Assembly (NCBI RefSeq): GCF_009730915.1
Contig: NC_052496.1
Coordinates: 124,001 to 188,000 of the forward strand
DNA length: 64,000 bases
From: Dioscorea cayenensis subsp. rotundata
Lineage: Eukaryota > Streptophyta > Magnoliopsida > Dioscoreales > Dioscoreaceae
Reading direction: 5' to 3'
Part shown: in pieces, positions 3,820 to 44,044 of the stretch
Layout of the letters: each line of letters opens with the position of its first letter
Numbering within the stretch: position 1 is the stretch's first letter
Notes under the pieces: generated by a model
The model's database searches: none
The model's input: only the letters and a program-made list of their open reading frames with translations
Told to the model about the DNA's origin: nothing
Program-made: the position numbers and the translations under genes

Positions 3820-4040
3820 ATAAAGTCGACAAGCGACAAAGCAAATGACAAAATAAACACGGAGGTACATCAGTTACGGTATCTTAACTGACTTTCTAGG
3901 ACAAACCCCCGCCATCCAACTCTAAAATGGAGATCATATCAAAAGGTATTTATTACACAGAACTCCCACAGAGAACCTTTCAAAGTAGATTGTAATATGA
4001 GAGGCTCGAACTTGAGACCTCTTAATCACAAACATGGGTA
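3820..4040 (-). mobile_element. tRNA-derived SINE-like copy
   Basis: On the minus strand the segment begins near 4035 with a tRNA-like head. AGGTCTCAAGTTCGAGCCTC resembles a Pol III B box (consensus GGTTCGANTCC). About 190 bases of non-coding body follow, down to about 3820. No clear target-site duplication or A tail was found, so the family and exact ends are uncertain. Confidence 0.35.
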
Positions 4041-22100: not shown

Positions 22101-24519
22101 CTAGGTGCTACGATTCTTTTAGCACTGAGTATTCTTACCGTTTATTCCCCTTGCTGGCAGTTGCTGCTTACTATTAATAATGTACATTGTATAATGTACC
22201 TTTTATCTACTTCTGCATGGCAGGCTCTTTCTTTGTTGTTTCTTTTATTTGCCAGCTGGTTGGCATACGTCACATTTGAAGATACTCTGCAAGGAAAAAC
22301 TATGTTTAGTTCCTATGGTGCCACATTATATCAAATGTTTGTACTTTTCACAACATCTAACAATCCAGATGTGTGGATACCTGCATACAAGTAAGCTTGT
22401 CTGTTCCTGCTTATCCAAAGTTCAGTTCCAAACTTAGGAAGCTTCTTATATTGTTCATACAATATTAAAAATCTCACTCTTATTTATACTTAGTATAACT
22501 TGGTAGACTCTCATCCCTCATGGACATGTATTACTCTATTTACACATCATTTTTAATAAGAGAAGTGTCCTATGTTTCTCCATTTCCAATATTTTCCTTT
22601 GGTCATGTCAGACTGCATGATGCAAGAGATCTGATTCAGTTCTTTCTTTCTACTCTCTGTTGTTTCATATGCTATAGTTCATGGGAAAAACTTGAAATAC
22701 AGGTCTATCCTAATGTAATAAAACAAGGATATCGAACAAATTTTAAGGTGTCCTTGTTTTTATGTACATGGATTGTGTTATGCAATTGCATGTTCTCATT
22801 ATCAATTTCTTGAATTCCTAAATGTTCTTTTCGAAGTTTTCCCAACTAAATCTCAAGTAACTCTATGATTTCGCTTTGTAATTTGTCACTCTCGAGAACA
22901 TTATTCTGACTTGATTCTCTTTGATTCCATATGTGTTTCATATTGAAGTATGAGTATAGCATGTGAATGTAAACTTCATTATGCAGGGCCATGATTGTGT
23001 TATGCAATTGCATGTTCTCATTATCAATTTCTTGAATTCCTAAATGTTCTTTTCGAAGTTTTCCCAACTAAATCTCAAATAACTCTATGATTTCGCTTTG
23101 TAATTTGTCACTCTCGAGAACATTATTCTGACTTGATTCTCTTTGATTCCATATGTGTTTCATATTGAAGTATGAGTATAGCATGTGAATGTAAACTTCA
23201 TTATGCAGGGCCATGATATCTTATTTGGCTTTGTGTTTTCATATAGACATTTAACCGTACATTACATTGGCTTTTTAACATTACAGGAATGACAACAATG
23301 AATTTATTGATATGCTAGTTGTAAAATGACATTGCTTGTGATGACATAATGATTTTTAAGTATGGAAGTAAAAATTATGGAAGCTTCTTGATATAATGAT
23401 AATTCTTATCACAGTCTTCTTCCCTGTTCTTTGCATGGAGTAATTGGCATGTTTATCACGCATATATTTCTTAATGATTTGCTTTCTTGTTTGTCCTTCA
23501 TGTTTCTTTAGTTCAATTTTCATTAATAGATTCAATACTGATGGAAATTTTACTTATGTCCTCTTGTTCTGATGCATGTGTATACTTTGTTCAGGAAATC
23601 TCGCTGGTCTTGCTTGTTTTTCGTATTGTATGTGTTAGTGGCGGTTTACTTCCTCACAAATCTCATTCTTGCCGTTGTATATGATAGCTTTAAATCTGAG
23701 GTAATCATGCCAGTGCTTTTAAAATCAACTAGAAGGTGGTTACAACTGGTTAACATTAAATTCCTACTTTTCTTTCTATGTTGCATGGAGCATTAGCAAA
23801 TTCATCAGAATTTGTGATTTTATATTGCTGAGTCCACTATACGATAGGCTTCTATTATGCTTGAAAGCTTTCTTGACAATCTTAGAAGATTTTTTTATTA
23901 TTCTTTGCAGCTAGCAAAGCAAGTTATCGAAATGGACTCCACGAGGAGAAGGATTCTGGAAAAGGCATTCAATCTTATTGATATTCATGTAACCTTGATA
24001 CTTTTGATTCCTCTTCAAGTTCTCTTTTAATAGATGACATCTACAAATGATTTTTTTTCTTTTCTATAACGTTATGAATAGTTGCAATTGCACTAACACC
24101 TTGCCTTCCTATATGTAATAAATTTTGCCAGAGAAATGGACATCTGAACAAGGAGCAATGTGTACATCTGTTTGAGGAATTAAACAAGTACAGGTAACAT
24201 TTTTCTTTTAGAGACAATTTTTTTGCTAAGACATTGTTTTGAGGCAACGTTTCTTTGGTTCTGATTCATGACTTGTGTGATCTTTCTTGTCAAAGTTCAA
24301 TGTGAATTTTCTTTTCTTTTTCCCTTTTCCTGTAGGTCCTTGCCAAAAACTAAAAGTGAAGATTTTGAATTGGTATTTGATGAACTGGATGATAGCGGTG
24401 ATTTCAAGGTGAGTTACATTTTGTTTCTACTTTAGCGGTCACTAGGAAATAAATTAAGAAGCTAGTCCTCTTGAACTAGATTGAAGCAGCTTCATAGACT
24501 ATTTATTTCATAGCCAATT

Positions 24520-32667: not shown

Positions 32668-32829
32668 TGTTAGATGTATTATAGTATTGTATATATATAT
32701 ATACATGTATATGTATGGATATACGTATATGTATACTTATGTGTTCTATATGTAGACCCAAAGGGTCACTCATGTATGTTGTTCAATGTATGAGGACTTT
32801 GATCCATTCTTCATCAATCTCTTCTAACA
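32668..32829 (+). repeat. 5' LTR of the copia element
   Basis: 162 bp with terminal TGTTAG / CTAACA. It is followed at once by the primer-binding site TGGTATCAGACGCC. Confidence 0.95.
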
Positions 32830-33417
32830 TGGTATCAGACGCCTAGGTTCTTACTGCCGCTCATCGCGCCACGCACCGCCACCCTTCTCTCTCTCTCCCC
32901 GAGCGCCCCACCCGTCTCTCTTTCACTTCTGGTCTCCTCCTTTTCCATTGCCAACACCGCCGGTCCTCTCTCAATCTCCGCCATCTTCTTGGGCAATCTT
33001 CTTCTCCATCACCCGGCCAACAACTTTCCAGAAACCGGCACTTTCATTCATTCATTCAAAACAAACCTCGATTTGGTTCTCCCTTTGAGCCGCTCGTCGC
33101 ACCACGACCTCGCCGACCTTCACATTGTGTACGCCTCGCCTATCGGCCATCTTTTTATCTTCACTAACCAAGCTTTTTCCACTTCTATTTCCTTGTTTAA
33201 AAACCTTATCCAGTGAAGATCACCCGCGCCGTCACGCCGGTGCCGCGTCTGCACATCGCCGCCTACACGCCCGACCAGCGTTGTTCATCTTCCCGTGCAC
33301 TTGTCCGCGACTTCCTCTTCCCTTCTACGGGCCTACGCTTACTTTCCCCGAGATATTCTTTCAAAATTTGAATTCTCTTTTCCAAAAGAACAAGACACTT
33401 GCATTCTTCTTCCAAAC

Positions 33418-33645
33418 TAGAGATGGCAATTTGTACCCTACCCGACGGGTATGCAGATGCCAGATGCCGGTCGAAGAGGGTATTACCCTCTTTGGCCGGG
33501 GTACTCTGCACGTGAAGTATACCCGTTAGTTTTTGAGCGGTGCAGGGCCCGGGTGAGGGTATGCCCCTACCCTAGCACCCTTACCCTTACCCTTACTGCG
33601 TTGAAGAGGGTGCAGGTAGAAAACCCGATCCCGTGCCCTTACTCC

Positions 33646-33681
<36 letters not shown>

Positions 33682-34477
33682 TTATTAAACTAAACATTTA
33701 CTCGATATCTATTTTTCATGGTGATTAATTTGAAAATAATACTTCAAATTTTTCTCTTAATATATTATTTTTAAATTTTTATTTAATTTCTATATTTATA
33801 TTTGATAATATTATCAAAAATTGAATTTTAGATATATATTAAAAAAATCATAATTAAATTTAAAAATAAACAAATATAAAAATAATGTTATAATAATTTA
33901 TTCTATAAATTATAAAAACATCCCCGAAAAATAAGATACTAATAAAAATCAATTGGATATAACTTATGAGAATTACTTATAATATTTTTTTATATTCAAA
34001 ATCTTACTTAGATATTTATAAAATTTGAAGCTATATAAAAATATAAATAGTAGATATATGAAAAATTTAAAACAAAAACCAAGATAGTTAAACATGAACA
34101 AAAACAAAAGGTAGAGTTACCATTTGAGTTCTAAATAAATGTCATTTTTTATGTGATTATATAATTTAAGATAAACAAATATATATCAACTTAGTAATTT
34201 TTGAATTTATGGACATGTGTTTAAAGATTGTAATATAATGTATAATTAATTTATTTTTTTATTATTATTTAAATTTAATTCGATAATTTGAACAATGGGT
34301 AACAACGAGTAGCGGGTACCCTGCAGGGTATACCGTACCCTGCAGGGTAAGGGTAAGGGTATGATTTTTTTACCCGCAAGAGTGCGGGTAAGAGGTACGG
34401 GTATGGGGTGGGGGTTACGGGTGCAGGGTAAGGGTTTTTGGCATACCCTACCCATACCCTACCCGTTGCCATCCCTA
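33418..34477. mobile_element. Non-autonomous hAT-like DNA element nested in the copia element
   Basis: The left end TAGAGATGGCAATTTGTACC and the right end, read on the minus strand as TAGGGATGGCAACGGGTAGG, form imperfect terminal inverted repeats of the TAGGGATGGCAA type common in plant hAT-like elements. Subterminal regions are packed with GGGTA/TACCC words (for example CTGCAGGGTAAGGGTAAGGG near 34330), and the middle is AT-rich with a TA microsatellite at about 33650-33676. No coding capacity. No 8-bp target duplication directly abuts the ends. An 11-base word, TTCTTCCAAAC, occurs immediately left of the element and again at 34519-34529. Confidence 0.65.
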
Positions 34478-37400
34478 GTAATATTCAAATCAGCTGGACC
34501 CACAACCACTTACACCTTTCTTCCAAACATAACAGGACAATTCATTTCGGGACCCACCACAAAGACTTTTGTTCCGATATCTCTGCGGCCCACTACCTTG
34601 AAGCATCTCTACAAACCAAAGAAGACAACATGGGCCTGCGCAATATAAATATATGTATTAAAAATCATGCATTATTCTTGACAGCTAGCACTATTCTATA
34701 TAGTAATATATATCTATATTTAAAAAATGGTGAATCCTTATGGTTTTCGATACGTGCTTTACTCACCTCTTCTTCCCTCGCCTCCCGCTCCCCGACACAT
34801 TCCTGTCAAGACCTCTCCCTGTTTCTTTATCTCCGCCGATCGTCGAGTTGTTGGCGATGTTCGGCGAGTCCCAAACGAATCATATTTGACGGATTTCTCC
34901 CCTCATTGGTAATGCCTCGTTCCACCTGAGGTTGCTCCATCCGCCTGGGTAGTTTCGTCCTCTCCGGCTTCGACTGCGGGCTGCCTCTCACATGACCCCG
35001 ATGCCACTTATCTCGCACCATTCCCATTTACCCTCTCACGTAACTGCGTGTTCGCCTGTCCCGATGGCACACTTCTTCTCGTTTCTCTCATCGGTCATTT
35101 CTCTTCGAGTGATTTCTCATTCCTTGACTCTCATGTTCCTCGTTTATCCATGAATCTTATATCCATTAGCCCGACTTCATCGATCATGATTGTCGAGGTT
35201 ATCTTTGACCGTACCTCTTGTCGTGTCGCGGGATCGCGATGGGACGGTGATAGGAAGCGGCCGTCGTCGAAATGGGGTTTATCGTTGGATTCCCTTCGTC
35301 TTCCATCTTCACCGAATCCGGGTCATCACTTTGTATATCTGCTGTTCGGTCTCATCATAAGTGGCATCATCGACTTGGTCACTTATGTCCGTCTACGTAT
35401 GTCGTCCCTTGTTCGTCGTGGCGTTTTTAGGAGTCTGCTCTCCTCCTTCCCGATGTCGTACTGTCTTGGTCGTAAACTTGGTAAGCAACTCCAACGTCCC
35501 TTATCCCTCGAGTGTGTCGCAGATCATCGCTCCTTTCGAACTTATTCACTCTGATGTTTGGGGTCCCGCTCCCTTTGTCTCTAAAAGGAGGTCATCGCTA
35601 TTATGTTCTTTTTATAGATGACTACACTCGATTCACTTGGCTTTATCTTATGCCTCACCGTAGCCAATTACTGTCTATTTATCGCTCTTTTTATGCTATG
35701 ATTCACACCCAGTTCTCTGCCTCTATTAAGAAATTCCGGTCTGACTCTGGCGGTGAGTACACCTCTCACGCCTTTCGTGCCTTCTCGACTTCGAGGCACA
35801 CCCTGCCTCGCTTATCTTGTCCTGGGGCTCATCCTCAGAATGGGGTCGCTGAGCGTAGCATCGTCACGTCTTAGAGGCGACACGTGCTGCTTCTTCTAGG
35901 GTGCATTTCTTCCCCTCATTTTTTGGGCGAAAGCATCGACCTGCATTTTATCTCATTAACCTACAACCCTCCTCTTACCTTAATGGTCGTAGTCCAGGTG
36001 AGTGTCTTTATGGGACACCTCCTCGTTATGATCATCTTCGTGTTTTTGGTTGTCGCTGCTTCGTTTTCTATCACCTCGGGAGAGAACAAAGCTAACTGCC
36101 CAGTCTGTTACTTGTGTTTTTCTAGGATATAGCCTAGAGCATAAAGGTTATCGTTGTTATGATCCCATCACTCGTCGTATTCGCATCTCCCGTGATGTCA
36201 CGTTTGATGAGTCCACACCTTTCTATGCTTCTCCTTCTTCCACTGAGTCCCCATCTCCCTCTGTTTCTTTATCTTTCCTTTTTCCTAACCCTTCGATTGA
36301 GCATACTCCTCCTATGTCTTCCTCTTCTCCATCATACAACCCTCCCTGCCGAGTTTCTTTTCTCACTCCTCTCTTGACCCCTCTCCTCCTTTATCTCATT
36401 GAGTCTCTGCTGTGTCTTCCCTCCCTTTATCTGTTGAGTCTCCCTGTAGTATCTTCCCTCCTCCCTTGCTTCCTCTCGCTCACCCACTGCTCGTTTCACA
36501 TACCACCGTCGAATCTGCGAGAACCTCCATCTCGGTCCGGTCGTCTCGACACCCTCTCCTACTATCGATTCGAGCTCACGAGGTACACTCTCACACTTAT
36601 TCTTTACGTGATCGCTCTACTTTACATCCCCCTGTCCGTTATGCTTCTACTAGCACCAGTGTTTTCGAGATGTCTTTGAGCGGTACCTCACGGGAAGGCG
36701 ATTCGATTACAGAGTGGCGATCGCCATGGCGAAGGAGCTTGATGCTTTGACTTCGGACTCATACGTGGGATCTCGTTCCTCTTCCTCCTCATCGCCGTTC
36801 CCATCACCCTGTCGTTGGATCTACCGTGTGAAGACTCGTTCGGCGAGGTCTCTGAGCGCTATAAAAGCGGCGTTTGGTTGCTACGTGGCTTTCGGCGAGG
36901 GAGTATGGTCGTGATTATGAGGAGACTTTTGCCCCGATAGCTCATATGCTGCTTACTGCGCACTTTGATTCTGTCATTGCTGTCATTGCGTGGTTGGGTT
37001 CTTCATCGACTGATGTGAAGAGCAGCGTTTCTTCATGGGGACTTGAAGGAGGAGGTTTACATGACTCCTCCTCCCGGCCTCGGGTGCCTTGGGATACATG
37101 TTTGTCGTCTTCGTCGCGCTCTTTATGGTCTCAACGAGCTCCACGGGCTGGTTTGAGCGAGTTCGATCTGATGGTTGAGGTCGCTGGTTTCACCCTCGAG
37201 CATACATGACCCGGCGGTCTTCATTCACTCTTCCTCTCGTGGACAGACCATTCTTCTTCTATATGTCGATGATATGATCCTTACCGGTGATGACTCTGCT
37301 CACATTACCTTTGTGAAGCAGAAGTTATGTGAGACCTTCTTGATGACCGATTTAGGGTCCGCTCGTTACTTTTTGGGTATCGAGATTACTTCTCATCTGA

Positions 37401-38235
37401 TGGGTACCGCCTCTCTCGCTGCGTTATACTCACGACCTACTTGCTCGCTCTGGTTTGGTCGATACCGTATTCTTTGCTACAGCGATGGAGTTACATTTGC
37501 AGCTTCGTGCCTCTGATGGGATTCCCTTATCTGATCCTTCTCGCTATCGACATCTGGTTGGCAGTTTGGTTTACTTAGCCGTCACCCGTCCAGACATTTC
37601 TCATACGATTCACATTCTCGGTCGATTCGTTGCGGCACCCACTACGATTCATTATGCTCATCTTATTCGGGATACTACGATATCTTCGTGCGTATCGTAT
37701 CTCGTGGTCATGTTTTACTCACGTCGATCTACTCTTGATTCGCGGGCCTATTCACGATGCTACTTGGGCGATTCTCCCGATGATCGTGTCTCTCATCATT
37801 TGATTCTTGTATTTTTTTCTTGGCTCTTCTCTTGTTGTTTGGAAAACCAAGAAACAACCTACTATTGCCAAGTCTAGTCTTTGAGGTGAGGTTCGTGCGT
37901 TGGCTTCTCACCGTCGGGAGGTACTTTGGGCGCGTTCGATTCTCTGAGGACTTTGGTGTACCTATCACATCTCCCATTCCTATTCACTTTGTGACGATCT
38001 GGAGCCCCTTGATTCTCTGCGGATCGATCAAACATGAGGTGACCAAACATATTGGTGTGGATGCACACTTCAGCACGATGCCATGTACGCGTGCCGGGGC
38101 TGTATCACTTCACTATCTTCCCTCTAGAGGTCCGGGTGGGCTGATTTTTTTCACCAAGGCCCGACGACGTGATCACCATCTATTCATAGTTATCCAAACT
38201 CAAGACGCATGATCCGCCTTGAGTTTGAGGGGGGG

Positions 38236-38379
38236 TGTTAGATGTATTATAGTATTGTATATATATGGATATACGTATATGTATACTTATGTGTTCTATA
38301 TGTAGACCCAAAGGGTCACTCATGTATGTTGTTCAATGTATGAGGACTTTGATCCATTCTTCATCAATCTCTTCTAACA
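38236..38379 (+). repeat. 3' LTR of the copia element
   Basis: 144 bp, identical to the 5' LTR apart from lacking an 18-bp ATATATACATGTATATGT-type stretch. It is preceded by a polypurine tract. Confidence 0.95.
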
Positions 38380-40718: not shown

Positions 40719-43700
40719 TTACCTGGTTCTTATTTGATACACTTTATTGTACGAAATTGAGTGAAGAATCATATGAAACAAATCATACTTCACAGGCTTG
40801 TTATGACAAAGAAAATGCTTTTGCACCTTCCTCACTCCCAATTGCAATGCATTGTACTTCTCTTCAGAAATTAACAGCAGTATCTCCTTAAGTCGAGGTA
40901 CATCTTTCTCCGGTATGATAACCGAAAATGCCTCCCAATTAAACACTTCGAAAAAAGGCGGCACGTAGTTATCAGATATGATCACTGGCACACATGCGTA
41001 AAAGATTGACTCTATAACTCGAGGACTATTTACTTCGTAACCTCTCGGGCAAATGCAGTACTTGGTTGACTTCATAAACTGTCGATAATTCATGTTTCTT
41101 TTGATGCTAGATGGTAAGGGGCCGAAAATTTTCATGTCCTTATCTTTGTTCTCCCAATGCTGCAGTAAAATTGGCCGGAGAGTACCGTGCATGCTACCGG
41201 CATAAAATGCAAGAATTGTCCTCTCGTTAGCAGGCTTACCACCAATGTCTTTAAGAGTGTTTCTCGCAGATCGAACATAAGTTTCAGGGAGTGATACATC
41301 TTTTCCTAAGCGAAAACCAAAATGCAAATCAGCCACACAAAGTGCTCTGATTGCACGAGCCATTGCGTGTCTGGTCTCATAAGGTGCCTGCAGAAATGCA
41401 GATGTAGAGAATTTAAAGAAGATCAAGATATATCTGATTATGGAGTAATACGAAAAAAAAATAAGTACCCAGTCATGACAAGCAACAATGAAATGGTCTC
41501 CACCACCAGTTCGATTCCAGAAAGGATATTTTGCTGCGATTGTGTTGACATGATCCTGCAGAAACAGCTCAAGATTTTGTTAGTAAAAATCGATCTAATC
41601 AAATTAGGGTTAAAAAAAAAAAGTTCTAATCAAATTAGGACTATCAATTACAATCAATTGATATTTAATCAACAATTGATTAATTATCAAGGATCGATCA
41701 CATGAACACATGAATATATGTGAAAGATCGAGGGTTACCTCACGGAGATTTTCACAAACGCAAAAATCCTCCAACGCACTACACGCAATGTTCTCGAACT
41801 TTTCACCCTTGATCCGTAAGAAGTGATGGCTACTTTTGCTCCAAGCAACTATTGTTAATATTAGGGTTTTTGTCGTAGCCGTCTTTTGATGGCAATCACA
41901 AATCAAATAAAATTAATTCATAAAGAAACCCTAATCTCATATCACATATTTATAGGGAGTAAATATATTCGGATAAGGTTAGAACATGTAGCGTGAATCC
42001 CGCTTTGGGATCACTACATCTTTAGCAAAATTAGTCCATACTAATTTTGATAATCACAATCATGTCCATCAACAAATTGCAATTTAATCCAAAGATTAGA
42101 GATATTCATATGTGAGACCCCAATATAATATTTTACATATTAGTCCCTCTATCAATAAATATTCCATATAAGTGGGATAATTAGACCACCAATGACACTG
42201 TCGATCTCCACTTACATGTGTGTTTCTTTACACTATTGGACATAAAACAATTTAAAGAAAAAAAAATATATATATATATATATATTATATAATAAAATAC
42301 TTTCAAAAAATAACCGGCAGGATTTTTATCCAACACATAAGAAACACAATCTAGAATATTCTCTCCTACATAGAGTGATAGATCTCATCTTGGATGACTA
42401 CAAACCTTCAGTGTATTTATTATATAACCCAACGTGTCCAGATATAGCCCTGTAATTAGCATCACCCTGTTGACACTATCAAAGTCATATAATTTATACA
42501 TAAGATTTAATAACATCCTCAAGTAATAAGGACTTTCCGTAATGTAATAACTCTTTTGTTCTATGACGAGTGTTTGGTCTAAGAGTTCGTATAGTTCAGC
42601 TCAATATTTGTCATTCTACAAATATCCACAATGTTACTAAGAGTCTCCACTCTGAGTGATCGAGACATACCACTCTATCACACATAGTAGTACAACATGC
42701 TGACAACCAATAATGAATACAAAAATCATATTTTTATCTCATGGGTTGTGAACTATTTTTGGGTTGCAAGGAACATAGATAATCATGTCTCACTTTAATG
42801 ATCTCTATCATTAATTTGAAATCTATACAATGCAAGCCCATAATAATATATCATCAAACATGAATAATACAATACCCATAATTATGCATGCAATGAAATA
42901 AAACTATTTTATTATTAAACAATAACTAAAATTGGCTTTGTAGGGCATACTAGTTTTTCAGATTTGTCCGATTATGAGAGTTGCGCACATACAATGCGAA
43001 TTGCAGCAGACGAGAACTGAAAGGAATGTAAAACATGTTGGCCTTCCTTGGATCACTCACAACAAATTGCTTGTTACCTTCCATCAACTTCATGAACCAA
43101 CCTTCTGAAGCATACAATCCTTTGAGCAATGGCTGATGAAATATTGGCTTTTGTCCTTCCTTATAAACATAAATCTTCAGTGTCTTCTCCATTAGCTCAT
43201 AGCTCCTATAGTGCTAGTTTGCATTAGTTTCTAGGTAAGAGATTCTACAATCTCTTGTATGTCTCATAGATATTTGTTCATTTTAATGAAAATTAGAAGA
43301 GCATACCTCTTAAACATGGAAATGTTCCGAAATGCTGGTGCATAAAGTTCTCCAGCATTCTTCACAATAGGAGCATTCTCAATCTCTGCTTTCATTGCTA
43401 ATATTTTCTTGTCGTGTGGCGATGACCATCGAGGTCTCTACAAAGTGATACCAAAACATCAAAGAACAATTATAAATAATTTCCAAACATCTTCATAAAA
43501 TAACAAAGAACTAAAGAACCAATGTAGCACAAACCATAGCATGATAAGCAGCCCTGTTTCTGACCAGTAATCGGTTCATTTCCGATATGCACACTGGAGG
43601 TAATGCGCGCAACTTCTTCTTCTTCTTCATTACGGATGCAATTTTACTTGTTTCACCATTTGAATAAATGGCCAAACTTTCATTCTTCGCAAGCCATGAG

Positions 43701-44044
43701 AAATTGGTTTTAGGCATTCCTAAATCCAAACTATGAACTTCAACTTGCTTCAATGTCAATGCTGACAAGCCAATCTCATTCATTTCCTTAACCCCAAAAT
43801 CAATCTCACTTTCAACAGACCTTTCAGAAATTTTCAACCCCTTGTTAACTACTAACCGGTTTGTTAAGTTCACTGTGTCACTTAAAAGAGAGAACTTTCC
43901 AACCCAAGTGATGGATTTAGGGATTTCACTGGTTGGTAACTGATGAGAAAAATCATTTCTAGAAGGGATTCTAAGAGTCTGCAGAACTATGACCATTGAG
44001 GCCATGAACCCCATCATCAAAACCATCCTTTTGTGATGCTCCAT
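40719..44044 (-). CDS. Exostosin-family glycosyltransferase (GT47, At5g03795-like), exon 3 interrupted by a solo LTR
   Basis: Golgi type II membrane glycosyltransferase of the plant GT47 clade; the acceptor is unknown. Exons: 44044-43535, 43437-43307, 43205-42961 continuing at 41572-41469, and 41387-40719. Residues 1-6 are short and cytosolic, and a hydrophobic signal anchor follows at about 7-22. The exostosin domain starts near KTLKIYVYKEGQKPIFHQP. It runs through FYIPFSSRLLQF, AAKYPFWNRTGGGDHF, ILAFYAGSMHGTLRPILLQH, KYCICPRGYEVNSPRVIESI and PVIISDNYVPPFFEVFNWEA. Between the two halves of exon 3 sits a 1383-bp solo LTR (41578-42960) with a 5-bp target duplication. It falls within the codon for about residue 296. 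Counting one duplication copy, host exons total 1659 nt (552 aa), in frame and with no other defect. The allele shown should be null or truncated unless the LTR is spliced. The visible donor/acceptor pair would not restore the frame. Confidence 0.9.
41578..42960 (-). mobile_element. Solo LTR inside the GT47 coding exon
   Basis: 1383 bp, TG...CA on either strand, flanked by the perfect 5-bp duplication GATTT (41573-41577 and 42961-42965; AAATC on the minus strand). Orientation is taken as minus because the minus-strand 5' end (near 42955) reads AGTATGCCCTACAAAGCC, like the start of a known class of long plant LTRs. A TATA-like CTATAAATATGTG follows near 41950. No primer site, coding domain or second LTR is present, so it is a solo LTR left by LTR-LTR recombination. 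Family is unassigned. The intact duplication and the otherwise undamaged host exon argue for a fairly young event. Confidence 0.85.

Follow-up and report, generated by a model that had tools for sequence, protein, structure and literature searches.

The window analysed here is a 64,000-nucleotide stretch of the genome of the yam Dioscorea cayenensis subsp. rotundata (C26:124001-188000, in an assembly of 584 Mb and 2249 contigs). On its minus strand, a gene model of four exons comprises 44044-43535 (exon 1, 510 nt, with the start ATG at 44044), 43437-43307 (exon 2, 131 nt), 43205-41469 (exon 3) and 41387-40719 (exon 4, 669 nt including the stop codon, supported also by Pfam PF03016). Exon 3 is interrupted by an insert that divides it into a 5′ part of 245 nt (42961-43205, including one copy of the pentamer AAATC and delimited by own-genome matches of the joined exon as well as by the gene model) and a 3′ part of 104 nt (41469-41572). 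An earlier note had described the exons as summing to a multiple of three in a host gene with no other damage, and this is borne out: with one AAATC kept, the joined coding sequence (510 + 131 + 245 + 104 + 669 = 1659 nt) encodes a protein of 552 aa with no internal stops, reading NSHNRTNLELFLQDHVNTIAAKYPFW across the insertion site.

By its domain content, the split gene is a putative GT47 exostosin-domain glycosyltransferase. The joined protein scores 214.2 bits against PF03016 (cut-off 33.4); scored apart, the upstream domain piece reaches 32.9 bits, below the cut-off, and the downstream piece 170.2. Solved structures matching the protein (E up to 1) comprise eight distinct sequences, all named exostosin or AO75L, and they cover mainly its C-terminal half, so that they are uninformative on the insertion point. 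A comparison of the joined protein with viral_contigs returned two pattern matches and no relatives, and no Rfam family matched anywhere in the window at gathering thresholds. Intron 3 of the gene (41388-41468) is 81 nt long, stop-free and in frame, and its retention would thus add 27 residues to the protein.

The insert (41578-42960, minus strand) measures 1383 bp, begins with TG, ends with CA and lies in sense orientation to the gene. It is flanked by a perfect target-site duplication, with AAATC at 42961-42965 on the upstream side and at 41573-41577 on the downstream side, and has no internal region. These limits agree to the base with the solo long terminal repeat (LTR) and 5-bp duplication put forward in the earlier note. 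A motif match places a TATA-like box, CTATAAATA, at LTR position 1006 (41947-41955), and a branch-site-like TACTAAC occupies the 3′ end (41579-41585). The three frames of the insert hold 33, 38 and 34 stops and, since insert and duplication together add 1388 bp, the frame would shift even with read-through. A 22-mer from the LTR had no match in viral_contigs.

The anatomy of the site was also set against chance. In the exon block, identical 5-mers separated by 300 bp or more form 1947 pairs; ten of these have TG..CA ends, 20 restore the open reading frame (ORF) and one does both. The 20 ORF-restoring pairs yield 14 distinct proteins, the longest of which is that of 552 aa. Dinucleotide shuffles of the insert produced at least one pair combining TG..CA ends with ORF restoration in 12 of 300 trials, and the resulting figure of 4%, obtained from sequence logic alone, is of modest weight. 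The insertion call rests mainly on independent evidence, because the same ends recur in family copies and the exon is uninterrupted in paralogs.

Exon 3 runs continuously through the site in all seven same-genome paralogs examined (two on C4, one each on C17, C20 and C8, and two on C115). The four closest are gap-free at the site; the matched stretches of the three distant ones contain 1, 2 and 5 gap letters. Positions 1-349 of the joined exon (349 nt) match C4:13595012-13595360 at 80% and C17:842173-842521 at 68%, while positions 2-349 match C4:11823676-11824023 at 77%. Stops occur inside two of the paralog stretches (C4:11823652-11824038 and C17:842162-842530), and over aligned residues 284-332, around the site, there is a single stop, which falls past the exon end. 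The insertion is exonic, within coding exon 3 of the GT47 gene, as the earlier note had claimed.

These comparisons also bear on the possibility that the interruption is a native intron which happens to hold a repeat. In base composition the insert (GC 0.307) is AT-rich like the three introns of the gene (0.268-0.297), as against 0.39-0.41 for its exons. An intron shared at this site had been named beforehand as the observation that would count against an exonic insertion, and it is absent from every one of the seven paralogs. Moreover, the LTR ends cannot serve as the borders of a GT-AG intron, and joining the exon parts recreates a block that matches the paralogs from end to end. A native intron is thereby refuted within this genome, and we regard it as extremely improbable. 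The available text of a study in cotton describes exon/intron structure as conserved within GT47 branches (PMC6749837).

Two of the related loci have features of their own. In the close paralog at C4:11.82 Mb (L075), the reading frame of exon 4 is broken near codon 497 (about positions 3918-3922 of the locus), through either a pseudogene lesion or an assembly error. A partial copy of exon 1 of the disrupted gene, in pieces 70% and 65% identical, lies at C17:16.77 Mb (L081, 1833-2152), and no match to the other GT47 exons was found in the 4 kb retrieved there.

A genome search with the LTR, in which 40 of 313 first-look candidates were scored, returned at least 46 match rows. These rows do not amount to a full count of copies, and some single copies are broken over several of them. 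Among the 46 match rows listed, 32 (the query itself included) extend from query positions 1-6 to 1388-1393, the LTR occupying positions 6-1388. We retrieved 34 copies with their flanks for comparison of ends and surroundings. The 5′ end, TGAAAAA, falls at the same base in all 34, and the 3′ end is TAACA in 30; two of the remaining four end in TAATA and two are not aligned to the end. In 17 of the 34 copies the LTR is solo and its 5-bp duplication perfect, making the solo form the commonest among those retrieved. Nine others have neither a PBS-like nor a PPT-like neighbour and show an imperfect duplication, one of the nine not being aligned to the end. A PBS-like TGGTACCAGAGC directly follows two copies, and a PPT-like stretch (GTGCAAG/GTGGGAGA) precedes six.

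The kind of element from which such LTRs derive can be seen on C16, where two copies (L022 and L023) form the ends of one element, with L029 between them and CCTCA on the outer side of each. A PBS-like sequence follows one of the bounding LTRs and a PPT-like sequence precedes the other; the PBS-like sequence after the 5′ LTR reads GTGGTACCAGAGCC, which may be complementary to initiator tRNA-Met. In the ORFs of the 4.9-kb internal region, a gag-type domain (21.8 bits, below the cut-off of 27) is followed by gag_pre-integrs, rve, SH3 and RVT_2, which is the copia arrangement; integrase precedes reverse transcriptase within one ORF (rve 76-172, RVT_2 398-641). The shared ends, flanking duplications and enclosed copia-type region identify the block at 41578-42960 as the LTR of a multicopy copia-type family, and the insert in exon 3 is the solo LTR of a Ty1/copia-type element. 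Elsewhere in the family, a solo LTR with a perfect 5-bp duplication is nested in another LTR of the same family (L016, C18:4436376-4437943), with family matches adjoining on both sides.

A full-length copia element reduced to one LTR by collapse in the assembly would produce the same picture. The LTRs of one element do resemble each other, and the assembly holds N gaps, two of them in the window. The single LTR at the GT47 site lies in an ungapped stretch, however, and solo LTRs prevail among the retrieved copies; the assembly also keeps apart the two LTRs of the single complete element that was examined, with 53 of 1335 sites differing. We consider collapse highly improbable.

Other features of the window deserve mention. 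On the plus strand, 32668-38379 is occupied by another copia-type element, distinct from that of the GT47 insert, whose frames are broken and which holds fragments of rve, SH3 and RVT_2; its LTR-like ends (32668-32829 and 38236-38379) are 89% alike, and the 5′ end adjoins an assembly gap. The gaps appear as N runs at about 31.7-32.7 kb and 48.4-49.4 kb, totalling 2000 N. At 22771-23217, a 222-bp unit is present in two tandem copies 99.6% identical, which looks like a young duplication.

In the filled allele, the reading frame continues through NSHNRTNL and two LTR codons, and the third is TAG. The protein would end after residue 298, within the GT47 domain but short of its C-terminal part, and the disrupted allele is most probably a null, as predicted from the reading frame. 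The proposal in the earlier note of an allele-specific knock-out thus stands in part: a null is very probable, whereas the allele-specific part of the claim is not shown, the disrupted locus being represented by one copy in the assembly, which therefore displays no empty allele and gives no basis for judging heterozygosity. Transcripts may end at the LTR or start from it, given its orientation and the TATA-like box, and the paralogs on other contigs could provide backup. We propose that a copia-type element integrated in sense orientation into exon 3, duplicating AAATC, and was later reduced to a single LTR by recombination between the two. The solo end state is shown by the anatomy of the site, and the order of events is that of the standard route. 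Taken as a whole, integration into the exon followed by LTR-LTR recombination to a solo LTR, with a probable null as outcome, is in our judgement very likely the correct account.

The age of the insertion is less straightforward. The earlier note had called it recent, a description that the LTR family does not support: when 33 LTRs are placed in a tree, the terminal branch of the focal one measures 0.0288 substitutions per site, the 21st shortest of 33, and the focal LTR has 14 private substitutions and nine private indels, the mean number of indels over the 33 copies (the focal one included) being 3.5. Divergence from the nearest copy amounts to 3.7% of sites. Of the private indel states, two were looked for genome-wide and were present only at the GT47 site; in a control on the 34 retrieved copies, the family form was recovered in 17 and the private form in none. 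With each of the two thirds of the LTR outside 42501-42960 as a separate query, the best other copies showed identities of 96% and 95% along their length, and one 100-bp piece on C14 reached 99%.

At an assumed rate of 1.3e-8 per site per year, the focal branch corresponds to 2.2 Myr and the private substitutions alone to 0.8 Myr; with an assumed rate of about 1e-8 per site per year, the LTR's own changes would place the insertion at roughly 1-3 Myr. The focal branch is an upper age limit only, since the copy from which the LTR derives may have been lost or be missing from the assembly or the sample. The 1659-nt coding sequence is free of internal stops and frameshifts. If it had evolved neutrally over the whole branch, the probability of finding no damage would be 0.015, 0.0016 or 0.0001 at assumed indel-to-substitution ratios of 0.06, 0.12 and 0.20, and if only the private substitutions are counted, 0.23 or 0.10 at ratios of 0.06 and 0.12; the private ratio of the focal LTR itself, 9 to 14, exceeds all of the ratios assumed. 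For a dead gene, the 95% limit on the persistence of an undamaged ORF would lie at about 0.9-2.7 Myr under the assumed rates. The private changes in the LTR are too numerous to be readily reconciled with an undamaged ORF, which implies either that the source copy was missed or unsampled or that the gene has been under selection for part of the time since insertion. The data fit an insertion less than roughly a million years old with its source missing, and we keep a small place for a gene that is still under selection.

Comparison with paralogs addresses a longer time scale. Over the joined exons 3-4 (338 codons), the focal gene differs from L074 with dN 0.167 and dS 1.263, values that indicate a gene long under purifying selection; against L075, dN is 0.146 and dS 1.781, and against L076, dS is undefined. 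Such ratios to paralogs are of little use for the period after the insertion. Among 174 positions that do not vary across the four other close genes, the focal gene differs at 19, the corresponding counts for those genes ranging from 6 of 161 to 17 of 172; its count is the highest, yet this is no clear sign of decay.

Continued function would be conceivable if the LTR were removed with a new intron, giving a slightly shortened, working protein. Such an intron would use a donor in the upstream part of exon 3, the TACTAAC at the LTR end as its branch site and a host acceptor in which CTGTTTCTGCAG is followed by exon sequence starting GATCATG. This acceptor, the best available, has 41555 as its first exon base and TACTAAC about 25 nt upstream, and the frame would be kept by donors at 42988, at a cost of 15 aa, and at 43060, at a cost of 39 aa; the latter, at -0.15, is on a par with intron 3 of the gene itself (-0.16). 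The coding sequence, moreover, is undamaged despite the nine private indels of the LTR. Against this, donor 42988 scores -2.37, as compared with 2.0, 5.28 and -0.16 for the three GT47 introns (all donor scores being based on a rough table of base frequencies), and the 39-aa loss would remove DPRKANMFYIPF, a likely part of the domain core. TACTAAC is the usual end of the LTR family, shared by 28 of 34 copies, and therefore no sign of adaptation at the GT47 locus. Splicing from exon 2 to 41555, or from exon 2 to exon 4 so as to skip exon 3, shifts the frame, which splicing from exon 1 to 41555 would preserve at the expense of exon 2 and the 5′ part of exon 3.

Across all GT/GC-AG pairs, we found 24 frame-keeping choices, each costing 11-72 host residues, and none that restores the full 552-aa protein; the low-scoring donor 42988 underlies both the 11- and the 15-residue loss. 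The suggestion, also made in the earlier note, that the LTR is processed as an intron is consequently not supported, and removal by splicing to give a working protein appears very unlikely. The fuller version, an old insertion (roughly 1-3 Myr) in a gene still selected, in which a new intron pairs the host-coded acceptor with the branch site supplied by the LTR and part of the exon has become intron, we judge very unlikely. Should the LTR nonetheless prove older than an undamaged ORF allows, the locus would offer a testable case of a retrotransposon end adopted as part of an intron. With the solo LTR read as a disruption, the empty site can be read from paralogs, which makes the case useful as a marker, and the locus is also suited to asking how long a disrupted ORF remains intact.

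The features of this element are those of plant Ty1/copia retrotransposons, namely a 5-bp duplication, TG..CA LTRs, a PBS-like TGGTACCAGAGC and integrase before reverse transcriptase, the difference being that one LTR stands alone at the GT47 site. Insertions into exons are known from Setaria waxy (GBSS1), where, as cited in the available text of PMC6686935, TSI-7 and TSI-9, gypsy-like and copia-like, lie in exons and cause loss of function; the likeness is an LTR element in an exon, and the difference a known grain phenotype in another gene with other elements. Another comparable case is the pearl millet d2 dwarf allele of ABCB1. According to the same partial text (PMC6686935), the natural allele holds a full 'Juriah' element and has a phenotype, and a construct with a solo LTR of about 1.4 kb in exon 1 of ABCB1 did not rescue the mutant. 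Both cases involve an LTR retrotransposon with a 5-bp duplication in a coding exon, but the solo LTR was engineered in pearl millet (PMC6686935), whereas in the GT47 gene the solo state is that of the assembly. Gene disruption by an exonic solo LTR is an ordinary event of a known kind, and the GT47 case is a clear new instance of it.
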